A DNA stretch of 43,918 nucleotides from NCBI GenBank assembly GCA_024641015.1, contig JAHEDU010000009.1:1-43918 (forward strand), written 5' to 3'. Under the pieces are notes generated by a model. It searched no databases and was not told the origin of the DNA. It saw only the letters and a program-made list of their open reading frames with translations. Of the stretch, positions 14,324-29,486 are shown in pieces. Within the stretch, counting starts at the first letter, position 1, and each line of letters opens with the position of its first letter. Position numbers and translations under genes: made by a program. Origin of the DNA: Micrococcales bacterium. GTDB taxonomy: Bacteria > Actinomycetota > Actinomycetes > Actinomycetales > Microbacteriaceae.

Positions 14324-14899
14324 ATGCTTCTTAGTGACCGCGACATCCGCGCCGAGATTGAATCGGGCCGCGTACAGCTTGACCCCCTCGACCTCGGGAT
14401 GATTCAGCCGTCCTCGATCGACGTGCGTCTGGACAAGTTCTTCCGACTGTTCGACAACCACAAGTACCCGTTCATCGACCCGGCCGAGGAACAGCCCGAC
14501 CTGACTCGCGCCGTCGAGGTGTCGGGCGACGAGCCGTTCATCCTTCACCCGGGAGAATTCGTCCTGGGAAGCACGTTCGAACTCGTCACTCTTCCCGACG
14601 ACATCGCGGCTCGCCTCGAAGGAAAGTCGTCGCTCGGTCGCCTCGGTCTGCTCACGCACTCGACCGCCGGCTTCGTCGACCCCGGCTTCTCCGGGCACGT
14701 CACGCTCGAACTGTCGAACGTCGCGACCTTGCCTATCAAGCTGTGGCCCGGAATGAAGATCGGACAGCTGTGCTTCTTCCGACTGACATCAGCAAGTGAA
14801 GACCCTTACGGCAGCGAAAAGTACGGTAGCCGATACCAGGGTCAGCGCGGACCGACAGCGTCGCGTTCGTGGAAGAACTTCCACAAGACCGAACTCTAA
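14324..14899 (+). CDS. dcd: dCTP deaminase
   Basis: Trimeric dCTP deaminase, 191 residues, feeding dUMP/dTTP synthesis. [36 protein letters not shown], and [23 protein letters not shown] are the family blocks; the last contains the nucleotide-binding Ser/Arg and the catalytic Glu follows in HVTLELSN. Actinobacterial members are often bifunctional (dUMP-forming), but that cannot be read with certainty here. The stop TAA (14897-14899) overlaps the stop of convergent nhaA in the tetramer CTAA, with no terminator hairpin between them. Confidence 0.95.
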
Positions 14900-16044
14900 G
14901 CCGAGACGCGTCGCGCGACGAAGAATGAGGCGACCGCTCCGATGACGGCGGCGACAACAACCGCCGCGGTTCCCGTTTCACCGAATGACGTGTCACCCAG
15001 AGCCAGGTCGTTGATCAACAGCGCCACGGTGAAACCGATTGACGAGATAGTTCCCACCAGCCAGACATCACCGCGTCTCAGCGATGCGTCCCGGCGACCG
15101 CCAAAGTACCTTTCTGCAATCCATGCAAAGAACACGATTCCGAGCGGCTTTCCGACGAGCAGACCCGCCACAATCCCGGCAAACACGGGAGAGGTCGTTG
15201 CGCATGCGCCGATGACAGCCAGCGAGACGCCCGACGAGACAAACACGAAAACCGGAATAGCGACATAGGACGATACGGGAAGGAAGGCGGTCAATGCCCG
15301 GTCGGCGAGTGTGCCCTTGGGCCCTCGCTTTGTTGACAGCAACAGTCCGATGGCAACGCCAGCAATCGTGGCGTGGACGCCTGACTGGAAGACGAGCCAC
15401 CAGATGCCTAGGCCAAGCGCGATGAGGACGACCGGGTGACCGATTCGCGTCCGCTGCAGAATAGCGAACAATCCGAGCGCGAGAACTGCTCCACCCACAT
15501 ACAGGGGCTGCAAGCCAGGTGTGTAGAACAACGCGATGACGATGATTGCGCCAAGGTCATCGACTACGGCAAGCGCGAGCAGGAATGTTCGAAGCGCGGG
15601 GTTTGATTTAGGTGCAACGAGAGCCAGGACGGCGAGGGCGAAAGCGATGTCCGTCGCCATCGGGATTCCCCACCCCACGAGAGTTTCTTGACCAACGTTG
15701 AAGGCGACGTAAATCAGTGCGGGAAATACCATTCCGCCGATGGCGGCCGCGACAGGGACGAGTGCCTTGCGGGGCGAATTCAGTGACCCAACGGTGAACT
15801 CATGACGCAACTCGATGCCGATGACGAGGAAGAAGAACGCCAGCAGGAAGTCGGCCGCCCAGTGGTGAACGTCGAGGACGAGTCCGGGGAAACCGAATTC
15901 GGCGTGAATGATGGCGTTATATGAACCGACGAAAGGCGAGTTGACCCACGCGATCGTCACCACTGCGACGGCGATAGTGATGACTCCGGTGCGCGTCTCG
16001 GCCGAGAGAACTGTGCTGAGCCAGTTCGAAATGCGCCCGCGCAC
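14896..16044 (-). CDS. nhaA: Na+/H+ antiporter NhaA
   Basis: An inner-membrane sodium/proton antiporter of the NhaA family, 382 residues from the chosen start, with about 11-12 transmembrane helices. The family hallmark is visible: [17 protein letters not shown] and, about 30 residues later, [16 protein letters not shown], which holds the two adjacent aspartates of the ion-binding site. The GTG start at 16044 shares one base with the idi stop (TAGTG on the minus strand). A longer frame to 16161 lies inside idi and is rejected. It is therefore the second gene of an idi-nhaA transcript, an unusual pairing of isoprenoid metabolism with sodium export. Confidence 0.93.
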
Positions 16045-16577
16045 TATTCGCTCAACTTGGACTCGACGAGTTGCTCGTGTTGCCACACCAGCCAAGGACT
16101 GAACGCGAACGGCGCGCCGTCGATTGCTGCTGCCAACTTGTCCGGTGAAATCCACTGCCATTCGGCGACTTCCTCAGGCGAGGGGTTCGGCTCGGACACG
16201 GCTACAGCCGCGAACACCGGGCAGATCTCGTTCTCGACGATTCCCGACGCGTCGACCGCTCGGTATCGGAAATTCGGAAGCACCGAGTGGATGCCGTCGA
16301 TCGTCATGCCCAACTCTTGCTGCGCACGGCGACGAATCGCGTCCTCGATGTCCTCGTTGGGGCCAGGGTGGCCGCAGAACGAGTTCGTCCAGACGCCCGG
16401 CCACGTCGCCTTCGACAGCGCGCGTCGCGTCACAAGGATTTCGCCGGCCGCGTTCGTGACGTGGCACGAGAACGCAAAATGAAGCGGGGTGCTGTCGGTG
16501 TGCACGGTCGCCTTGGGCGCGGTCCCGGTAGGGGCGCCCGAATCGTCCACCAGGACGACCAACTCTTCGGTACTCAT
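16044..16577 (-). CDS. idi: Isopentenyl-diphosphate delta-isomerase, type I
   Basis: Type I IPP isomerase with a Nudix fold, 177 residues, converting IPP to DMAPP for prenyl chain synthesis. Metal/active-site features are visible: HFAFSCHV, the catalytic Cys in TNSFCGHP, the Nudix-like REL-type helix AIRRRAQQELGM and the catalytic Glu in ENEICPVF. The ATG at 16577 sits 7 bases after a minus-strand TAGCCT hexamer (16590-16585), so a leaderless transcript is predicted. It is divergent from crtB, with an inverted repeat covering both -10 elements. That layout suggests joint control of precursor supply and carotenoid synthesis. Confidence 0.94.
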   Translation of the reverse strand: MSTEELVVLVDDSGAPTGTAPKATVHTDSTPLHFAFSCHVTNAAGEILVTRRALSKATWPGVWTNSFCGHPGPNEDIEDAIRRRAQQELGMTIDGIHSVLPNFRYRAVDASGIVENEICPVFAAVAVSEPNPSPEEVAEWQWISPDKLAAAIDGAPFAFSPWLVWQHEQLVESKLSE

Positions 16578-16601
16578 CTCTCTCAGGCTATCCTGAGAGA
16601 G
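16578..16601. promoter_or_regulatory. Bidirectional idi/crt promoter inside a perfect inverted repeat
   Basis: CTCTCTCAGG (16578-16587) and CCTGAGAGAG (16592-16601) form a perfect 10-base inverted repeat around a 4-base centre, CTAT. The plus-strand -10 TATCCT (16589-16594) and the minus-strand -10 TAGCCT (16590-16585) overlap by two bases inside it. The repeat touches the idi ATG (16577) on one side and the predicted crt start point on the other. One dimeric repressor bound here would block both directions. Confidence 0.65.
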
Positions 16602-16636
16602 TGCCGTCGGAAAGTGGCGGCACCGAGGAGGCGCAC

Positions 16637-17497
16637 GTGAGTCGGTTGGACCTGTACACCTCGGTCGCGCAAAAGACAGCGTCGCTTGTCATTCGCGACT
16701 ATTCGACGTCGTTCGGTTTGGCATCACGAATCCTGGGCAAGGAAGCCCGTCAGCACATCGACAACATTTACGCGCTCGTTCGTTTGGCTGACGAGGTCGT
16801 CGATGGAGTCGCCGTCGAGGCCGGTCTCGAGAATTCGATGGTTCGCCGTTCTTTGGACGAGCTCGAACGTGACACTTATGCCGCGATGGAATCAGGCTAT
16901 TCAACGAACCTCATCGTTCACGCGTTCGCCCACACAAGCCGTGCCGTGGGAATCACACGCGACATCGTCGAGCCGTTCTTTACGTCAATGCGCATGGACT
17001 TGTCGGACCGCACGTACACCGCCGAATCCTTTGCAACGTATGTTTATGGATCGGCCGAGGTCGTCGGATTGATGTGTCTCGCCGTGTTCGTGCGCGACAA
17101 CAAGCCGCTACCAACTCAGGCGCACGTGCTGGTTGCTGGTGCCCGCTCGCTCGGCGCCGCATTCCAAAAGGTGAACTTCCTGCGCGACCTTTCTGCCGAC
17201 GTCGACGGGCTCGGACGTTCGTATTTCCCCGGAGTTCGCATCGACACGTTCAACGAGATCGACAAGAAGCGAATCTGTGACGACATCGACGACGACCTGT
17301 CTCGCGCCGCCGCGACTCTTCCCCTGCTGACCGCGGATGCGCGCCGTGCGGTGGGTCTCGCTCACGGACTCTTCGCATCGCTCAACGCCAAGATCCGCCG
17401 CACCCCCGCGGAAGTTCTCAAGACCACTCGAATCCGTGTAAGCGACCCCGAGAAACTTCTCATCGCTGCACGCGTGATTCTCGGAGGAGCCAAGTGA
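16637..17497 (+). CDS. crtB: Phytoene synthase
   Basis: Joins two geranylgeranyl diphosphates to phytoene, the first committed carotenoid step. The two Asp-rich substrate motifs are present: LADEVVDG near residue 50 and RDLSADVDGLGR near 185. STSFGLASRIL near the N-terminus is typical. I chose GTG 16637 (286 residues) because GAGGAGG (16625-16631) lies 5 bases before it and the protein then starts like its relatives. GTG 16601 in the same frame sits 6 bases after TATCCT and could be a leaderless start giving 12 extra residues; both may be used. The stop overlaps the crtI start (GTGA). First gene of crtB-crtI-crtYe-crtYf-crtEb. Confidence 0.92.
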   Translation: MSRLDLYTSVAQKTASLVIRDYSTSFGLASRILGKEARQHIDNIYALVRLADEVVDGVAVEAGLENSMVRRSLDELERDTYAAMESGYSTNLIVHAFAHTSRAVGITRDIVEPFFTSMRMDLSDRTYTAESFATYVYGSAEVVGLMCLAVFVRDNKPLPTQAHVLVAGARSLGAAFQKVNFLRDLSADVDGLGRSYFPGVRIDTFNEIDKKRICDDIDDDLSRAAATLPLLTADARRAVGLAHGLFASLNAKIRRTPAEVLKTTRIRVSDPEKLLIAARVILGGAK

Positions 17498-19065
17498 CCA
17501 AGCAACGCGTCATCATTATCGGCGGCGGAATGGGTGGACTATCCGCCTCGGGCCTGTTGGCGCGTGACGGCTACGACGTCACCCTCCTCGAGGCGCTTCC
17601 GAACACCGGCGGTCGTGCCGGCTCGTGGTCCAAGGACGGCTTCCGTTTCGACACCGGTCCGTCGTGGTACCTCATGCCCGAAGTCTTCGACCACTGGTAT
17701 CGCTTAATGGGAACCAGCGCGAAAGAGCAGCTCGACCTGCGGCTTCTCGACCCGGGGTACCGGGTCTTCTTCGAACCGAAGGCGGGCGGCACTGCCGAGC
17801 ACATCGATGTCCAGGTCGGTCGCGAGAAAAACCTCGACCTGTTTGAACAGATCGAACCCGGATCGCGCGAGGCGATGTCACGCTATCTCGACTCGGCGAC
17901 GGAAACATATGAGATCGCCAAGAAATATTTCCTGTACACATCCTTCGTCAAGCTGGGGCCGATTCTTCAGCGCGAGGTTATCGTTCGACTCGGAACCTTG
18001 GCGCGTCTTCTCTTGACAAAGATTTGGGGGTTCGCGGGTCGCTACGTCAAGACCATGCGCGCGAAGCAGATTCTCGGGTACCCCGCGGTGTTCCTCGGGA
18101 CGAGTCCGTACGAGGCCCCCGCGATGTTCCACCTCATGAGCCACCTCGACCTCGTTGACGGAGTGCTCTACGCGCAGGGCGGGTTCACCCGTGTGATGGA
18201 TTCGATTCGTGACCTGTCGGTCGCGGCCGGCGTCTCGATTGAAACGAATGCCCGTGTGACGAAAATCAACGTCGACGAATCGGGTCGCGCCACGGGTGTC
18301 ACCTACACCGACGCCACCGGGGCGACGAAGACGCTCGATGCCGACATCGTCGTGTCGGGGGCGGACCTCCACCACACCGAGACCACGATGTTGCCGCCCG
18401 AAAAGCAGACCTTCCCCGAGAAGTGGTGGGACAAGAAGCAGCCGAGCCCCGGCGCGATCCTGTTGTACCTCGGGGTGAAGGGCGACCTGCCCAATCTGCT
18501 TCACCACAGCCTTTTCTTCACGGACGACTGGGAGGGTAGCTTCAAGCAGATCTTCGCGGACTCGCCAACCATGCCCAACCCAGCCTCGTTCTACGTCTGC
18601 ACGCCGTCCAAGTCCGACGACTCCGTCGCGCCCGCGGGTCACTCGAACGTCTTTGTTCTCGTTCCGTCGCCCGCCGACGTGTCGCTGGGTAAGGGCGGAC
18701 TCGACGGTAAAGGCGACCGAGCTATCGAAGAAGTTGCCGACCGAACGATTGACGCGATCGCAGAATGGGCGAACATCCCCGACTTCCGCGAACGAATCGT
18801 CGTTCGACGCACCGTCGGTCCCGCCGACTTCCAGGCTGACCTCGGCGCGTGGAAGGGCAACTCGCTCGGACCGGCACACACGCTTGGGCAGAGCGCTCTG
18901 TTCCGCGCGACAAACAAGTCGAGCAAGGTCGACGGGCTCTACTACGTCGGTTCGGGCACGGTTCCCGGCATCGGGCTTCCTATGTGCATCATCTCGGCCG
19001 AAGTTCTCCTCAAGCGACTGCGCGGTGACCACTCGGCCGGACCGCTTCCCGACAAGGCGATTTAG
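17494..19065 (+). CDS. crtI: Phytoene desaturase
   Basis: FAD-dependent desaturase, 523 residues, converting phytoene to lycopene in four steps. The N-terminal dinucleotide-binding motif IIIGGGMGGLSASG is at residues 7-20, followed by EALPNTGGRAGSW. The C-terminal CrtI-family FAD motif reads GLYYVGSGTVPGIGLPMCIISAEVL (key part YVGSGTVPGIGLPM). The GTG start overlaps the crtB stop and its TAG stop overlaps the crtYe GTG by one base, so translation is coupled along the operon. Length is typical of actinobacterial CrtI. Confidence 0.94.
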   Translation: MTKQRVIIIGGGMGGLSASGLLARDGYDVTLLEALPNTGGRAGSWSKDGFRFDTGPSWYLMPEVFDHWYRLMGTSAKEQLDLRLLDPGYRVFFEPKAGGTAEHIDVQVGREKNLDLFEQIEPGSREAMSRYLDSATETYEIAKKYFLYTSFVKLGPILQREVIVRLGTLARLLLTKIWGFAGRYVKTMRAKQILGYPAVFLGTSPYEAPAMFHLMSHLDLVDGVLYAQGGFTRVMDSIRDLSVAAGVSIETNARVTKINVDESGRATGVTYTDATGATKTLDADIVVSGADLHHTETTMLPPEKQTFPEKWWDKKQPSPGAILLYLGVKGDLPNLLHHSLFFTDDWEGSFKQIFADSPTMPNPASFYVCTPSKSDDSVAPAGHSNVFVLVPSPADVSLGKGGLDGKGDRAIEEVADRTIDAIAEWANIPDFRERIVVRRTVGPADFQADLGAWKGNSLGPAHTLGQSALFRATNKSSKVDGLYYVGSGTVPGIGLPMCIISAEVLLKRLRGDHSAGPLPDKAI

Positions 19066-19370
19066 TGACCGGCCTGTACCTCGGGCTGCTCCTTTTTTCG
19101 CTGGCCGGACTCGTCCTCTGTGACTGGCGATGGAAAATCGCGTTGTTCGACAACGCCAGGCACACCGTTCTGGTCATCGCGCTCTCGGTCGCGTTCTTCA
19201 TCAGTTGGGACATTTCGGGTGTCGCCAGCGGGGTCTTCTTCAAGGGTGACAGCAACCTGTTGGTCGGGTGGGACATCGCGACCGAAATCCCCATCGAAGA
19301 GGTCTTCTTCCTGACGCTCTTGTCGCACCTCGCCGTGATTGCCTTTCGACTGGCGGAGCGCCGCCGATGA
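19065..19370 (+). CDS. crtYe: C50 carotenoid cyclase subunit, CrtYe/CrtYc type
   Basis: One half of a heterodimeric carotenoid cyclase, 101 residues with three predicted transmembrane helices. The family motif PIEEVFFLTLL (PxEE...F) is at residues ~76-86. Start GTG 19065 shares a base with the crtI stop; the stop overlaps the crtYf ATG (ATGA). In Corynebacterium and Micrococcus, crtYe/crtYf (or crtYg/crtYh) next to crtEb cyclise a C50 lycopene derivative. In other actinobacteria, related crtYc/crtYd make beta- or gamma-carotene. The adjacent crtEb favours the C50 version; the ring type (epsilon, gamma or beta) cannot be read from sequence by eye. Confidence 0.85.
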   Translation: MTGLYLGLLLFSLAGLVLCDWRWKIALFDNARHTVLVIALSVAFFISWDISGVASGVFFKGDSNLLVGWDIATEIPIEEVFFLTLLSHLAVIAFRLAERRR

Positions 19371-19672
19371 GCACGACGTATTTGGAAATGTCTGTTCCTT
19401 ACCTATTCTGGGCAGCCGGGCTGACCGTCCTCGCGAGCTGGAAATTCCGCCTCTACATCCGTAGGCTCGCACTTCCCGTGGTCGGCCTCCTGATCGGAAC
19501 CGCAATCTTCGACAACCTCATCATTTGGTCGGGATTAGTCGCTTACGACGAGTCGAAGATTCTCGGCTGGCGAATCGGGCTGGCGCCCGTCGAAGACTTC
19601 CTCTATGCGATCGTGGCGGTTTTGCTGACCGCGAGTATGTGGCACATCCTGCGTCGCAAGGGCGACCAGTGA
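19367..19672 (+). CDS. crtYf: C50 carotenoid cyclase subunit, CrtYf/CrtYd type
   Basis: The partner cyclase subunit, 101 residues with three transmembrane helices and the motif APVEDFLYAIV near residues 74-84, equivalent to PxEE in the first subunit. ATG 19367 overlaps the crtYe stop (ATGA). An in-frame start at 19268 lies inside crtYe and is rejected. The stop overlaps the crtEb GTG. The two halves are homologous and together make one membrane enzyme. Both small genes are intact. Confidence 0.85.
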   Translation: MSTTYLEMSVPYLFWAAGLTVLASWKFRLYIRRLALPVVGLLIGTAIFDNLIIWSGLVAYDESKILGWRIGLAPVEDFLYAIVAVLLTASMWHILRRKGDQ

Positions 19673-20541
19673 CGCTCGCCCGGGTGGTGCTCGCGTCGTC
19701 GCGCCCCCTGTCCTGGATCAACACGGCGTACCCGTTCGCCGCTACGTACCTGGTGGCTGGCGGTCGGATCGACGCCACGTTCGTCATCGGGACGCTCTTC
19801 TTTCTCGTTCCCTATAACGTCGCGATGTACGGAATCAACGACGTTTTCGATTACGAGTCCGACATCCTCAATCCGCGAAAGGGCGGGGTTGAGGGCGCGG
19901 TTCTCACACCCGAATTCCACCGACCAGTCCTATGGCTCGCGGTGCTGGGGTGCGTTCCGTTCGTCGCCTATCTGGCAAGCGTCGGAAACCCCGTCTCGCA
20001 CCTCGTTCTTGCGCTGTCGCTGTGTGCCGTCGTTGCGTATTCGGCCAAGGGGCTTCGATTCAAAGAACGCCCGTTCCTCGACTCGATCACATCCAGCTTC
20101 CACTTCGTCAGCCCCGCGCTTTTTGCGACCGTCCTCGTCACGGGAACTATCGGCGCTGGAACGTGGATGGTTTTGGGCGCTTTCTTCCTGTGGGGTCTGG
20201 CGTCACACGCGTTCGGTGCCGTTCAAGACATCGTCGCTGATCGGTCTGCCGGGCTGCATTCGATTGCCACCGCGATTGGTGGCGCGTGGACGGTTCGATT
20301 CGCGGTTGGCTGCTATCTCGTCGCGGGCACGCTGCTCGTGTTCGGCCCGGCATATGCGCCGCTCGTTTCGCCGATTGTCCTGTTGTACATCTCGACGATT
20401 GTGCCGTGGTGGAACGTGTCCGACGACAACGCCGAGGACGCGAATCGCGGCTGGAAGCGATTCCTCGCTCTCAACTTCATCGCGGGTTTCGTCGTCACCG
20501 TCGCGCTCATGATGAGCGCCGCGACAACGATCAGCGGATGA
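19669..20541 (+). CDS. crtEb: Lycopene elongase (UbiA-family prenyltransferase)
   Basis: A 290-residue multi-pass UbiA-superfamily prenyltransferase that adds DMAPP-derived C5 units to lycopene, giving C45/C50 carotenoids such as flavuxanthin. The first Asp motif is NDVFDYESD (residues ~44-52) and the second is QDIVADRSAG near 187-196. GTG 19669 overlaps the crtYf stop; an in-frame start at 19525 lies inside crtYf and is rejected. Position and neighbours match the decaprenoxanthin/sarcinaxanthin type of operon. The last 11 bases overlap the end of the convergent transporter gene. No crtE (GGPP synthase) lies in the window, so the C20 precursor must come from elsewhere. Confidence 0.88.
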   Translation: MTLARVVLASSRPLSWINTAYPFAATYLVAGGRIDATFVIGTLFFLVPYNVAMYGINDVFDYESDILNPRKGGVEGAVLTPEFHRPVLWLAVLGCVPFVAYLASVGNPVSHLVLALSLCAVVAYSAKGLRFKERPFLDSITSSFHFVSPALFATVLVTGTIGAGTWMVLGAFFLWGLASHAFGAVQDIVADRSAGLHSIATAIGGAWTVRFAVGCYLVAGTLLVFGPAYAPLVSPIVLLYISTIVPWWNVSDDNAEDANRGWKRFLALNFIAGFVVTVALMMSAATTISG

Positions 20542-25523: not shown

Positions 25524-25943
25524 ATGTTCACCGAAAACGACCCGATCTTCCCCATCGCTCAGGCGGCGGAACTCGCGGGGATGCATCCGCAGACCCTTCG
25601 GCAGTACGACCGCCTTGGGCTCGTCAGTCCGACGCGAACCGCGGGTCAGTCACGGCGCTACTCGATGCGCGATATTGTCCAGCTGCGCGAAGTGCAACGA
25701 CTGTCGGCCGAGGGCCTCAACCTCGAGGGAATCCGTCGAATTCTCGAGCTGGAAAATGCTGTCCGCGTCTTGAGCGATCGCGTTCGCGAGCTTGAAGGGA
25801 TTATCGCGGACGAGGTCCTCACCCGACCGGGCGGGCGCGTTTTCGCGGCCGGCCAAGCTGGCGAGGTGATTCCGCTTCGCGCGGGAACGCGCACCAAGAA
25901 GTCGAACCAGGTGGTGCTGTGGCGCCGGTCCTGGTGGAACTAG
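25524..25943 (+). CDS. hspR: Heat-shock repressor HspR (MerR family)
   Basis: A 139-residue MerR-family regulator. The N-terminal winged helix-turn-helix (about 9-78) contains QAAELAGMHPQTLRQYDRLGLVSP and the RRYSMRDIVQLREVQRL block. A coiled-coil segment (about 75-97) follows and a basic tail ends in WRRSWWN. HspR represses the dnaK operon by binding HAIR sequences, with DnaK acting as co-repressor in Streptomyces. Two such sequences lie upstream of dnaK, so autoregulation is well supported. It begins 8 bases after dnaJ. Confidence 0.95.
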   Translation: MFTENDPIFPIAQAAELAGMHPQTLRQYDRLGLVSPTRTAGQSRRYSMRDIVQLREVQRLSAEGLNLEGIRRILELENAVRVLSDRVRELEGIIADEVLTRPGGRVFAAGQAGEVIPLRAGTRTKKSNQVVLWRRSWWN

Positions 25944-28608: not shown

Positions 28609-29451
28609 CTACCAAAACATGGGTCGGTCGTCATCGTCCGATTCCGCGCCGGAATCGGAGATTTCGACGACGACGGGGACGTGATCAGACGGCTGTTCAC
28701 CCTTCCGCTGGTCGCGATCGATGAACGCGTCCGTCACCGCGTCGCGGAAACCGGCGGACCCCAGGATGAAGTCGATTCGAAGCCCCTCGTCGCGCGGGAA
28801 CGCCAAGTTCTTGTAATCCCAATACGTAAAGCCCGTCGGAACCGTCGGGCGAACGACGTCGAACAGCCCCATCCGCTCGAATTCGGCGAACGATGAACGC
28901 TCAACGGGCGAGACATGGGTGGACTGCCCAACAATCATTCGAGGATCGCCACAGTCGGCATCGAACGGCGCGATGTTGAAATCACCCATTATTGCGAGTT
29001 GGTCGTGGGTTCGCATTTCCGCGGCGGTCGCCGTGCGCAACGCCTCTAGCCACCGCAGTTTGTAGTCGAAGTGCGGGTCTTCAAGCGAACGCCCGTTCGG
29101 CACATACAGACTCCAGAGTCGGGCACCACCGATCGTCGCACCAATGGCGCGCGCCTCGAGCGGGGGTTCGCCCACTCCGTCGTGATCTTTCGCGAAGCCG
29201 GGCATGCCCTCGAACCCCACTGTTATGTCAGAAAAGCCGAGTCGCGAGACAAGCGCGACACCGTTCCACTGACTCAGCCCGTGATGAGCGACCTCGTAAC
29301 CGGCCGCCGCCAAGGCGTCCTCGGGGAACTGATCATCACGGCACTTCGTTTCTTGCAACGCCAACACGTCGACGTCCGTCGCCTGCAACCACTCGACGAC
29401 CCGATCGACGCGGGTTCGAATCGAATTGATGTTCCAGGTTGCGATGCGCAC
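28609..29451 (-). CDS. xth: Exodeoxyribonuclease III / AP endonuclease
   Basis: A 280-residue exonuclease III family enzyme for base excision repair. Visible motifs: MRIATWNINSIRTRVDRV with the metal-binding Asn, LALQETKC with the catalytic Glu, YVPNGR, MGDFNIAPFDADCGDP with Asp-x-Asn, and SDHVPVVVE near the end with the catalytic Asp-His. GTG at 29451 is chosen because the protein then starts like its relatives and TAAACT (29464-29459) lies 7 bases before it; an in-frame upstream ATG at 29499 would lie within pyrE. Shares a 35-base divergent promoter region with pyrE. Confidence 0.94.
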   Translation of the reverse strand: MRIATWNINSIRTRVDRVVEWLQATDVDVLALQETKCRDDQFPEDALAAAGYEVAHHGLSQWNGVALVSRLGFSDITVGFEGMPGFAKDHDGVGEPPLEARAIGATIGGARLWSLYVPNGRSLEDPHFDYKLRWLEALRTATAAEMRTHDQLAIMGDFNIAPFDADCGDPRMIVGQSTHVSPVERSSFAEFERMGLFDVVRPTVPTGFTYWDYKNLAFPRDEGLRIDFILGSAGFRDAVTDAFIDRDQRKGEQPSDHVPVVVEISDSGAESDDDDRPMFW

Positions 29452-29486
29452 AGGTGCGAGTTTAGGCGGTCGGATAGAGTGGTGGG
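29452..29486. promoter_or_regulatory. Divergent leaderless promoter pair, xth/pyrE
   Basis: Only 35 bases separate the two GTG starts. The minus-strand TAAACT (29464-29459) is 7 bases before xth and the plus-strand TAGAGT (29475-29480) is 6 bases before pyrE. Ten bases separate the two hexamers, so each promoter's upstream contacts fall on or beyond the other gene's start. Confidence 0.55.

Follow-up and report, generated by a model that had tools for sequence, protein, structure and literature searches.

Does the perfect inverted repeat between idi and the carotenoid (crt) operon of this Microbacteriaceae genome bind a regulator of both transcripts, or is its symmetry a property of the promoters themselves? 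An earlier note on this DNA had proposed that a single dimer would switch idi, nhaA and crt together, and had remarked that the symmetry could also be intrinsic to a promoter firing in both directions. We examined the repeat in the window, by which we mean the whole stretch of 43,918 nucleotides analysed, and in the rest of the draft genome (1,302,568 bases searched, 87.7% complete), in its genus and family and in genomes of the same class.

The repeat, its neighbours and the two predicted starts

The repeat, CTCTCTCAGG-CTAT-CCTGAGAGAG, is a perfect 10-4-10 palindrome at 16578–16601, read from the bases themselves and assigned to no strand. It is the sole match within the window at up to three mismatches, none of 100 shuffles contained one, and a search of the draft genome for its inner 8-4-8 form, again with up to three mismatches allowed, gave a single place. 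Thus, the description of a perfect 10-4-10 repeat holds, and the repeat is unique in the draft genome. Its left end is the base preceding the idi ATG (16577–16575) and its right end is the G of the GTG at 16601, so that it fills the gap between the idi ATG and the crt start, as had been claimed. On the other hand, bare palindromes are common: the 1,077,299 bases examined contain 52 perfect repeats whose arms are 10 or longer and whose loops span 0–12, five of them in the window. An argument from palindromy alone was rejected as uninformative, since 52 similar repeats exist in the genome; this one stands out by its location and its conserved core. A plasmid search with 401 bases around the repeat as query gave no match.

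On the minus strand the repeat is followed by idi (16044–16577), encoding an isopentenyl-diphosphate delta-isomerase of the Nudix type (NF002995, 262.3 bits with a cut-off of 127; PF00293), and then by nhaA (14896–16044; TIGR00773, 274.7 bits with a cut-off of 254). The GTG of nhaA overlaps the idi stop codon (TAGTG, 16042–16046), which implies coupled translation. On the plus strand, crtB (16601–17497), of the squalene/phytoene synthase family (PF00494, matched with the shorter form of the protein), is followed at 17494–20541 by the remaining crt operon, assigned by family matches: a crtI family gene, two lycopene-cyclase-domain genes and a prenyltransferase gene. The best matches among titled genome records were mostly to Microbacteriaceae. 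No regulator gene is adjacent, in agreement with the earlier note; idi and crtB are directly divergent and nhaA comes after idi. A MerR-type regulator gene (PF13411) was seen at 25524–25943, directly after a DnaJ-like gene, and it is probably the heat-shock regulator of the DnaJ-like operon rather than a carotenoid light regulator. The PF00348 genes of the genome, the family to which a crtE would belong, are on contigs C28 and C86, with none on C80, the contig of the window; in one congener (G001), and for one of the two genes in another (G006), PF00348 shares a contig with the crt genes, at a distance of some 98 kb or more.

The core of the repeat, AGGCTATCCT, reads TATCCT on the plus strand and TAGCCT on the minus strand, joined via the self-complementary TA. 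The predicted -10 box of idi is TAGCCT (16585–16590, minus strand), 7 nt before the ATG, and that of the crt transcript is TATCCT (16589–16594, plus strand), 6 nt before GTG 16601; the statement that both hexamers lie within the repeat and overlap by two bases is correct, the shared bases being TA. From this spacing, transcription of idi is predicted to start at 16577–16578 on the minus strand (leaderless, or with one extra base) and that of crt at the putative leaderless GTG, 16601–16603 on the plus strand, so that the predicted start sites, taken from box spacing and start codons, would be 23–24 bp apart. For idi, the codon at the leaderless distance is the start of the annotated protein. 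For crtB there are two in-frame start candidates, either the leaderless GTG 16601 or GTG 16637, which is preceded by a Shine-Dalgarno-like GAGGAGG (16625–16631, plus strand).

Predicted leaderless genes and fused promoters across the genome

We profiled TANNNT hexamers before the candidate starts of 761 long ORFs in 1,077,299 bases (83% of the genome); start codons came from a simple ORF rule with no gene caller, with a minimum of 150 aa for the profile and 80 aa for the gene pairs described below. At 6 nt, the hexamer was found before 9.5% of 611 ATG, 6.1% of 801 GTG and 0.2% of 408 TTG codons, and before none of 443 control CTG codons; at 7 nt the corresponding values were 2.6, 1.2, 0.5 and 0.2%. 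At 8 and 9 nt before ATG they were 0.7% and 1.0%, with no clear peak, and at most other distances about 0.4%. The peak at 6–7 nt before ATG and GTG is what PMC3160421 and PMC3898074, in their accessible parts, describe as the mark of leaderless genes in Actinobacteria, and the idi/crtB boxes lie at the same distances; unlike the genes described there, the two promoters here face apart and share two bases. As TANNNT peaks genome-wide at these distances before ATG and GTG, and hardly before TTG or CTG, both transcripts are probably leaderless.

The boxes found at 6 nt, 107 in number, favour G at position 3 (frequency 0.63) and C at position 5 (0.63), followed by G (0.61) and a purine (0.84). Each half of the idi/crtB core approaches this leaderless consensus, TAGGCT/TAGCCT and then G and a purine, and two such half-boxes placed back to back tend toward a palindromic core by themselves. 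The plus-strand box TATCCT is invariant, yet its T at position 3 is found in just 6% of the 107 boxes. The outer symmetry was compared with the same promoters: from per-position match rates a run of ten matching pairs is expected at about 4e-5, and 1 of 8,778 promoter pairs had such a run, presumably idi/crtB itself, as the set included idi and crtB. Thus, the ten-pair run is rarer than the promoter consensus predicts. Runs of at least six pairs are found in about 0.5% of promoter pairs, and six-pair symmetry, which is kept in 8 of the 13 genus loci described below, could reflect chance among five fused sites, selection for equal polymerase loading, or a weak operator.

A scan of the same 1,077,299 bases for divergent pairs in which each start has TANNNT at 6–7 nt and opens an ORF of 80 aa or more gave 27 pairs. 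Control scans, seven in all, used other start codons, three altered hexamers or three other distances and gave 0, 1, 6, 0, 0, 0 and 0 pairs, the six coming from the hexamer CA...T. The boxes are fused at TA in five of the 27 pairs, with starts 22–24 bp apart; the other 22 pairs are 31–66 bp apart, and no box overlap other than the TA fusion was found among the 27. Besides idi/crtB, the fused pairs are a DUF3515-like lipoprotein/thiL, a glutaredoxin-like protein/HAD hydrolase, proC/a small membrane protein and a short-chain dehydrogenase (SDR)/PepO-like peptidase, where the names other than idi and crtB come from reading the proteins. When the ORF filter was left out, genomes generated from a first-order Markov model contained 0–4 fused sites (8 runs, mean 1.25) against the 5 observed, so the count of five is weak alone and it is the ORF-filtered comparison that carries weight. 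Further double-leaderless divergent pairs were noticed at 31–35 bp (L125, L173, L218, L235 and L120), and within the window at 29451–29486, between exonuclease III-like and pyrE-like genes, also named by reading.

The other fused pairs were followed in their own relatives; loci whose match left the start uncovered (2 of 14 for thiL, 2 of 15 for proC and 1 of 15 for pepO) were dropped. The DUF3515/thiL pair has the same fused geometry with asymmetric arms, and its TTTCAGG[C/T]TACCGTTG was present in every one of the 12 loci whose start was covered; one set of these loci had been picked by a pattern containing the core, and the other, by protein match, covered all 12. Glutaredoxin/HAD has a palindromic core with different letters, CCAGC-CTAT-GCTGG, which two of four loci carry exactly and the remaining two as near variants; the comparison was limited to 4 of the 15 HAD matches, with the other 11 at 26–31% identity. 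The fused form of proC/membrane protein was kept in 2 of 13 loci, and that of SDR/pepO in 3 of 14, namely this genome and its nearest relatives. Were invariance at the N positions of TANNNT the mark of an operator, variation would be expected there in other fused promoters. As the non-palindromic DUF3515/thiL promoter is equally invariant, tight conservation does not imply an operator, and the double duty of bases shared by two promoters may suffice to explain it. Unrelated gene pairs with unrelated arms are also what is expected if there is no common regulator.

The design was also searched for across the class, taken to be Actinomycetes, in 118 genomes including this one. The ATG-ATG fused pattern occurred 212 times, in 83 genomes, against 48 times, in 35 genomes, for the pattern read backward, a control that does not keep the start-codon context. 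ORFs of at least 80 aa flanked the site on both sides in 20 of 30 loci checked among the 212 matches (at most one per genome, this genome among them), and in 10 they did not.

Conservation in the genus and family

A CrtB search retrieved 13 loci in 15 genus genomes, including this one, and in all 13 idi is divergent and adjacent. The core AGG[C/T]TATCCTGA, which holds the two fused -10 boxes and a GA (16585–16596, no strand), is present without exception across CrtB identities down to 65%, so that the opposite-strand -10 elements overlap in 13 of 13 loci; as the loci are related, this agreement does not amount to 13 independent events. AGG[C/T]TATCCT is kept in all 13 with the idi start codon 6–9 nt from the box: the distance, 7 nt here, is 6–7 nt in 4 loci and 8–9 nt in 9. 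Since the 8 and 9 nt positions reach only 0.7% and 1.0% in the ATG profile, idi may have a leader of 1–3 nt in those congeners. On the crt side, a GTG at the same spacing as here is found in 11 of 13 loci.

The arms behave differently from the core. Counted from the centre, pairs 1–3 match in 13 of 13 loci, pairs 4–5 in 11, pair 6 in 8, pairs 7–8 in one, which is this genome, and pairs 9–10 in 3; the full 10-4-10 form is found in this genome only. Left-arm changes in G003, G007, G008 and G012 have no matching change in the right arm. The earlier note had made conservation in relatives that keep the gene pair its check, and the answer is divided: the core stood and the outer arms did not. NhaA was detected beside idi in 5 of the 13 loci, with about 0.9 kb beyond idi examined per locus; thus, the sodium-export link is no conserved part of the arrangement.

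The sequence TCAGGNTANCCTGA was found in 9 of the 15 genus genomes, at one place each, which in all nine closely precedes the crtB match. A more relaxed pattern was present in 7 of 398 family genomes. Six belong to the genus; the seventh, G316, belongs to another genus, and at its locus L101 the 14-base core TCAGGATAGCCTGA stands 9 nt ahead of an ATG. The L101 stretch gave no match to idi or CrtB, and this occurrence is either chance or a similar promoter.

Of 80 family-level loci, four (L002–L005) have the genus core. In the other 76, idi is divergent and 1,082–1,242 bp from crtB in 43 and within 300 bp in 13; it lies farther in one and on the other strand in 7, and there is no idi match in the stretch in 12. 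We expect the gene in the 1.1-kb interval to be crtE, also from frames read by eye. The fused ANNNTANNNT was found within the set distances in 4 of the 61 family-level loci with idi on the minus strand, all of them the congeners L002–L005, so that among these 61 no locus from outside the genus had the fused form at idi. Several Curtobacterium loci (including L019, L023, L024, L026, L027 and L034–L036) carry ATAGGTTA or ATAGATTA upstream of idi, with about 21 nt between the starts of idi and the next frame; by eye, these are readable as two almost completely overlapping -10 boxes.

The start of crtB differs within the genus. In 9 of the 13 loci (L083 and L086–L093), a GTG 6 nt past the plus-strand box opens a frame of 12–13 codons whose TGA overlaps the crtB ATG as ATGA, and in 8 of these 9 no GGAG- or GAGG-like motif was found before crtB. 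The overlap and the missing Shine-Dalgarno-like motif suggest that ribosomes entering at the 5′ end may reach crtB by translational coupling. Here, unlike in those loci, GTG 16601 is in the crtB frame (16601–16639) and the GAGGAGG stands before the second GTG, 16637. Several other family loci have a longer upstream frame with the same ATGA overlap onto crtB, and the mini-frame of the genus may be a relic of a lost crtE.

Promoter, operator or coincidence

We consider it highly probable, from the features of the sequence, that the 24-base palindrome is a fused bidirectional promoter of two predicted leaderless transcripts; the remark that the symmetry could be intrinsic to the promoter turns out to be the best-supported reading, by geometry, the leaderless peak and recurrence. 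Two -10 boxes would be fused via a shared TA, TAGCCT for idi(-nhaA) and TATCCT for the crt operon, and RNA polymerase would bind in either orientation, never both at once. Transcription would begin about 7 nt downstream of each box, at the idi ATG or one base before it and at GTG 16601, from sites 23–24 bp apart, and would give leaderless messages both ways, so that the region between the two start codons would be the entire bidirectional promoter. The inner symmetry would come largely from both halves nearing the genome's own leaderless consensus, and the outer symmetry would be a local coincidence. What we computed for this reading comprises the sequence with its geometry and conservation, the leaderless signal seen genome-wide and the fact that the design recurs; the actual start sites, the mutual exclusion of polymerases and the absence of a dedicated operator are what we infer. 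Our confidence allows for some further protein binding there as well, and for sharing that has no consequence.

Prokaryotic bidirectional promoters were reportedly first described in a paper of 2021. In the portions of PMC12825309 and PMC10268837 available to us, they are defined by divergent starts 7–25 bp apart, and the idi/crtB locus resembles them in the overlap of opposite-strand -10 elements and in predicted starts 23–24 bp apart. The commonest separation is 18 bp, 10 and 23 bp being common also, and in E. coli the activation of one side can repress the other (PMC12825309, same portions). Unlike the promoters of these two sources, as far as their accessible text goes, both transcripts here are predicted to be leaderless and the promoter would be the whole region between the start codons. 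The accessible text of PMC3898074 reports that no conserved -35 motif was found in M. tuberculosis promoters and mentions closely juxtaposed divergent promoters; the fused form of divergent leaderless promoters is not described in the available parts of PMC3898074 and PMC3160421, and the words 'bidirectional' and 'divergent' are absent from the main text of PMC12340547 and PMC3160421. More broadly, the fused double-leaderless form is not described in the titles and abstract starts listed by searches on leaderless together with bidirectional or divergent promoters or Streptomyces start codons, with most subscription papers outside their reach, and a search for Microbacteriaceae carotenoid promoters returned no paper.

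Set against the promoter reading, the repeat would be the operator of an unlinked dimeric repressor, for instance a MarR-type protein, whose binding would cover the two -10 boxes and control idi and crt jointly. The perfect dyad is near the usual size of MarR sites, which are 16–20 bp and overlap the -10 or -35 in the accessible text of PMC7432914 and PMC5401885, and the locus resembles the crtR/crtE region of C. glutamicum described there, which is divergent, precedes the crt operon and has inverted repeats overlapping the promoter. Unlike that region, this one has no divergent MarR gene and no TTAA, and idi stands in place of crtR. CrtR requires a TTAA motif in the promoter region, according to the part of PMC5401885 available, and no TTAA occurs here between 16400 and 16800. 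The core is found once per genome where present (9 of 15), which suits a local regulator, and as CrtR itself may have one site only (PMC5401885, same part), a single site per genome is no argument against an operator. The genome also has MarR-type genes (6 PF12802 matches in G000), and 11 of 13 loci keep the match at arm pairs 4–5, beyond the hexamers. Nevertheless, no regulator is adjacent to idi/crtB, and a MarR query taken from a crt locus of Glutamicibacter (a MarR protein by family, which may or may not be CrtR) matched in just 2 of 15 genus genomes, this one included, and weakly in both (E 1.4e-9 and 1.1e-4; 32 and 31% identity; 84 and 67 aa). Together with the uncompensated left-arm changes, the absent TTAA and the weak MarR matches leave the proposed dimer switching idi, nhaA and crt together unsupported. 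The non-palindromic DUF3515/thiL promoter is conserved just as tightly. After weighing the operator against CrtR, we set it back from main reading to rival, and judge it quite improbable.

It is less doubtful, although we do not favour it, that two ordinary divergent promoters simply overlap by chance, the symmetry having no function beyond the boxes and the sharing no consequence; this is a weaker form of the promoter reading, and its odds lie inside those of the latter. The outer arms are not conserved, promoters that consist of TANNNT only are short and overlap easily, and the 22 other pairs lie 31–66 bp apart; in five E. coli bidirectional promoters tested in the accessible part of PMC12825309, basal activity was too low for polymerase competition. 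Chance alone fits poorly with a core that is invariant in 13 of 13 loci at CrtB identities down to 65%, and with the same fused geometry, and no other overlap, in 5 of 27 double-leaderless pairs. We give hardly any credence to a role of the repeat in RNA, as hairpin, attenuator or terminator. If it were transcribed, the repeat could form a 10-bp stem and a 4-base loop, but given the predicted starts each transcript would hold no more than the end of the repeat, no T run follows it on either strand (read by eye) and the full stem is present in only 1 of the 13 genus loci.

On the promoter reading, what was presumed to be the operator of pigment genes becomes an instance of a general promoter design, in which two genes start 22–24 bp apart and the gap is predicted to hold both promoters with no leader. 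If the orientation of the polymerase is the sole choice, such loci would be minimal natural systems for asking whether the sharing of a -10 element couples genes, and with 5 fused sites among 27 pairs in 83% of the genome, and the pattern in 83 of 118 class genomes, there would be many natural replicates. For annotation, fused sites would point to the start codons of both genes together. Perhaps, although we think it unlikely, fused double-leaderless promoters are a recurrent device of the class that ties divergent genes to a shared 10-bp site without a regulator, where arm symmetry would be selected for approximately equal loading in the two directions and would here fix the ratio of precursor isomerase to phytoene synthase.
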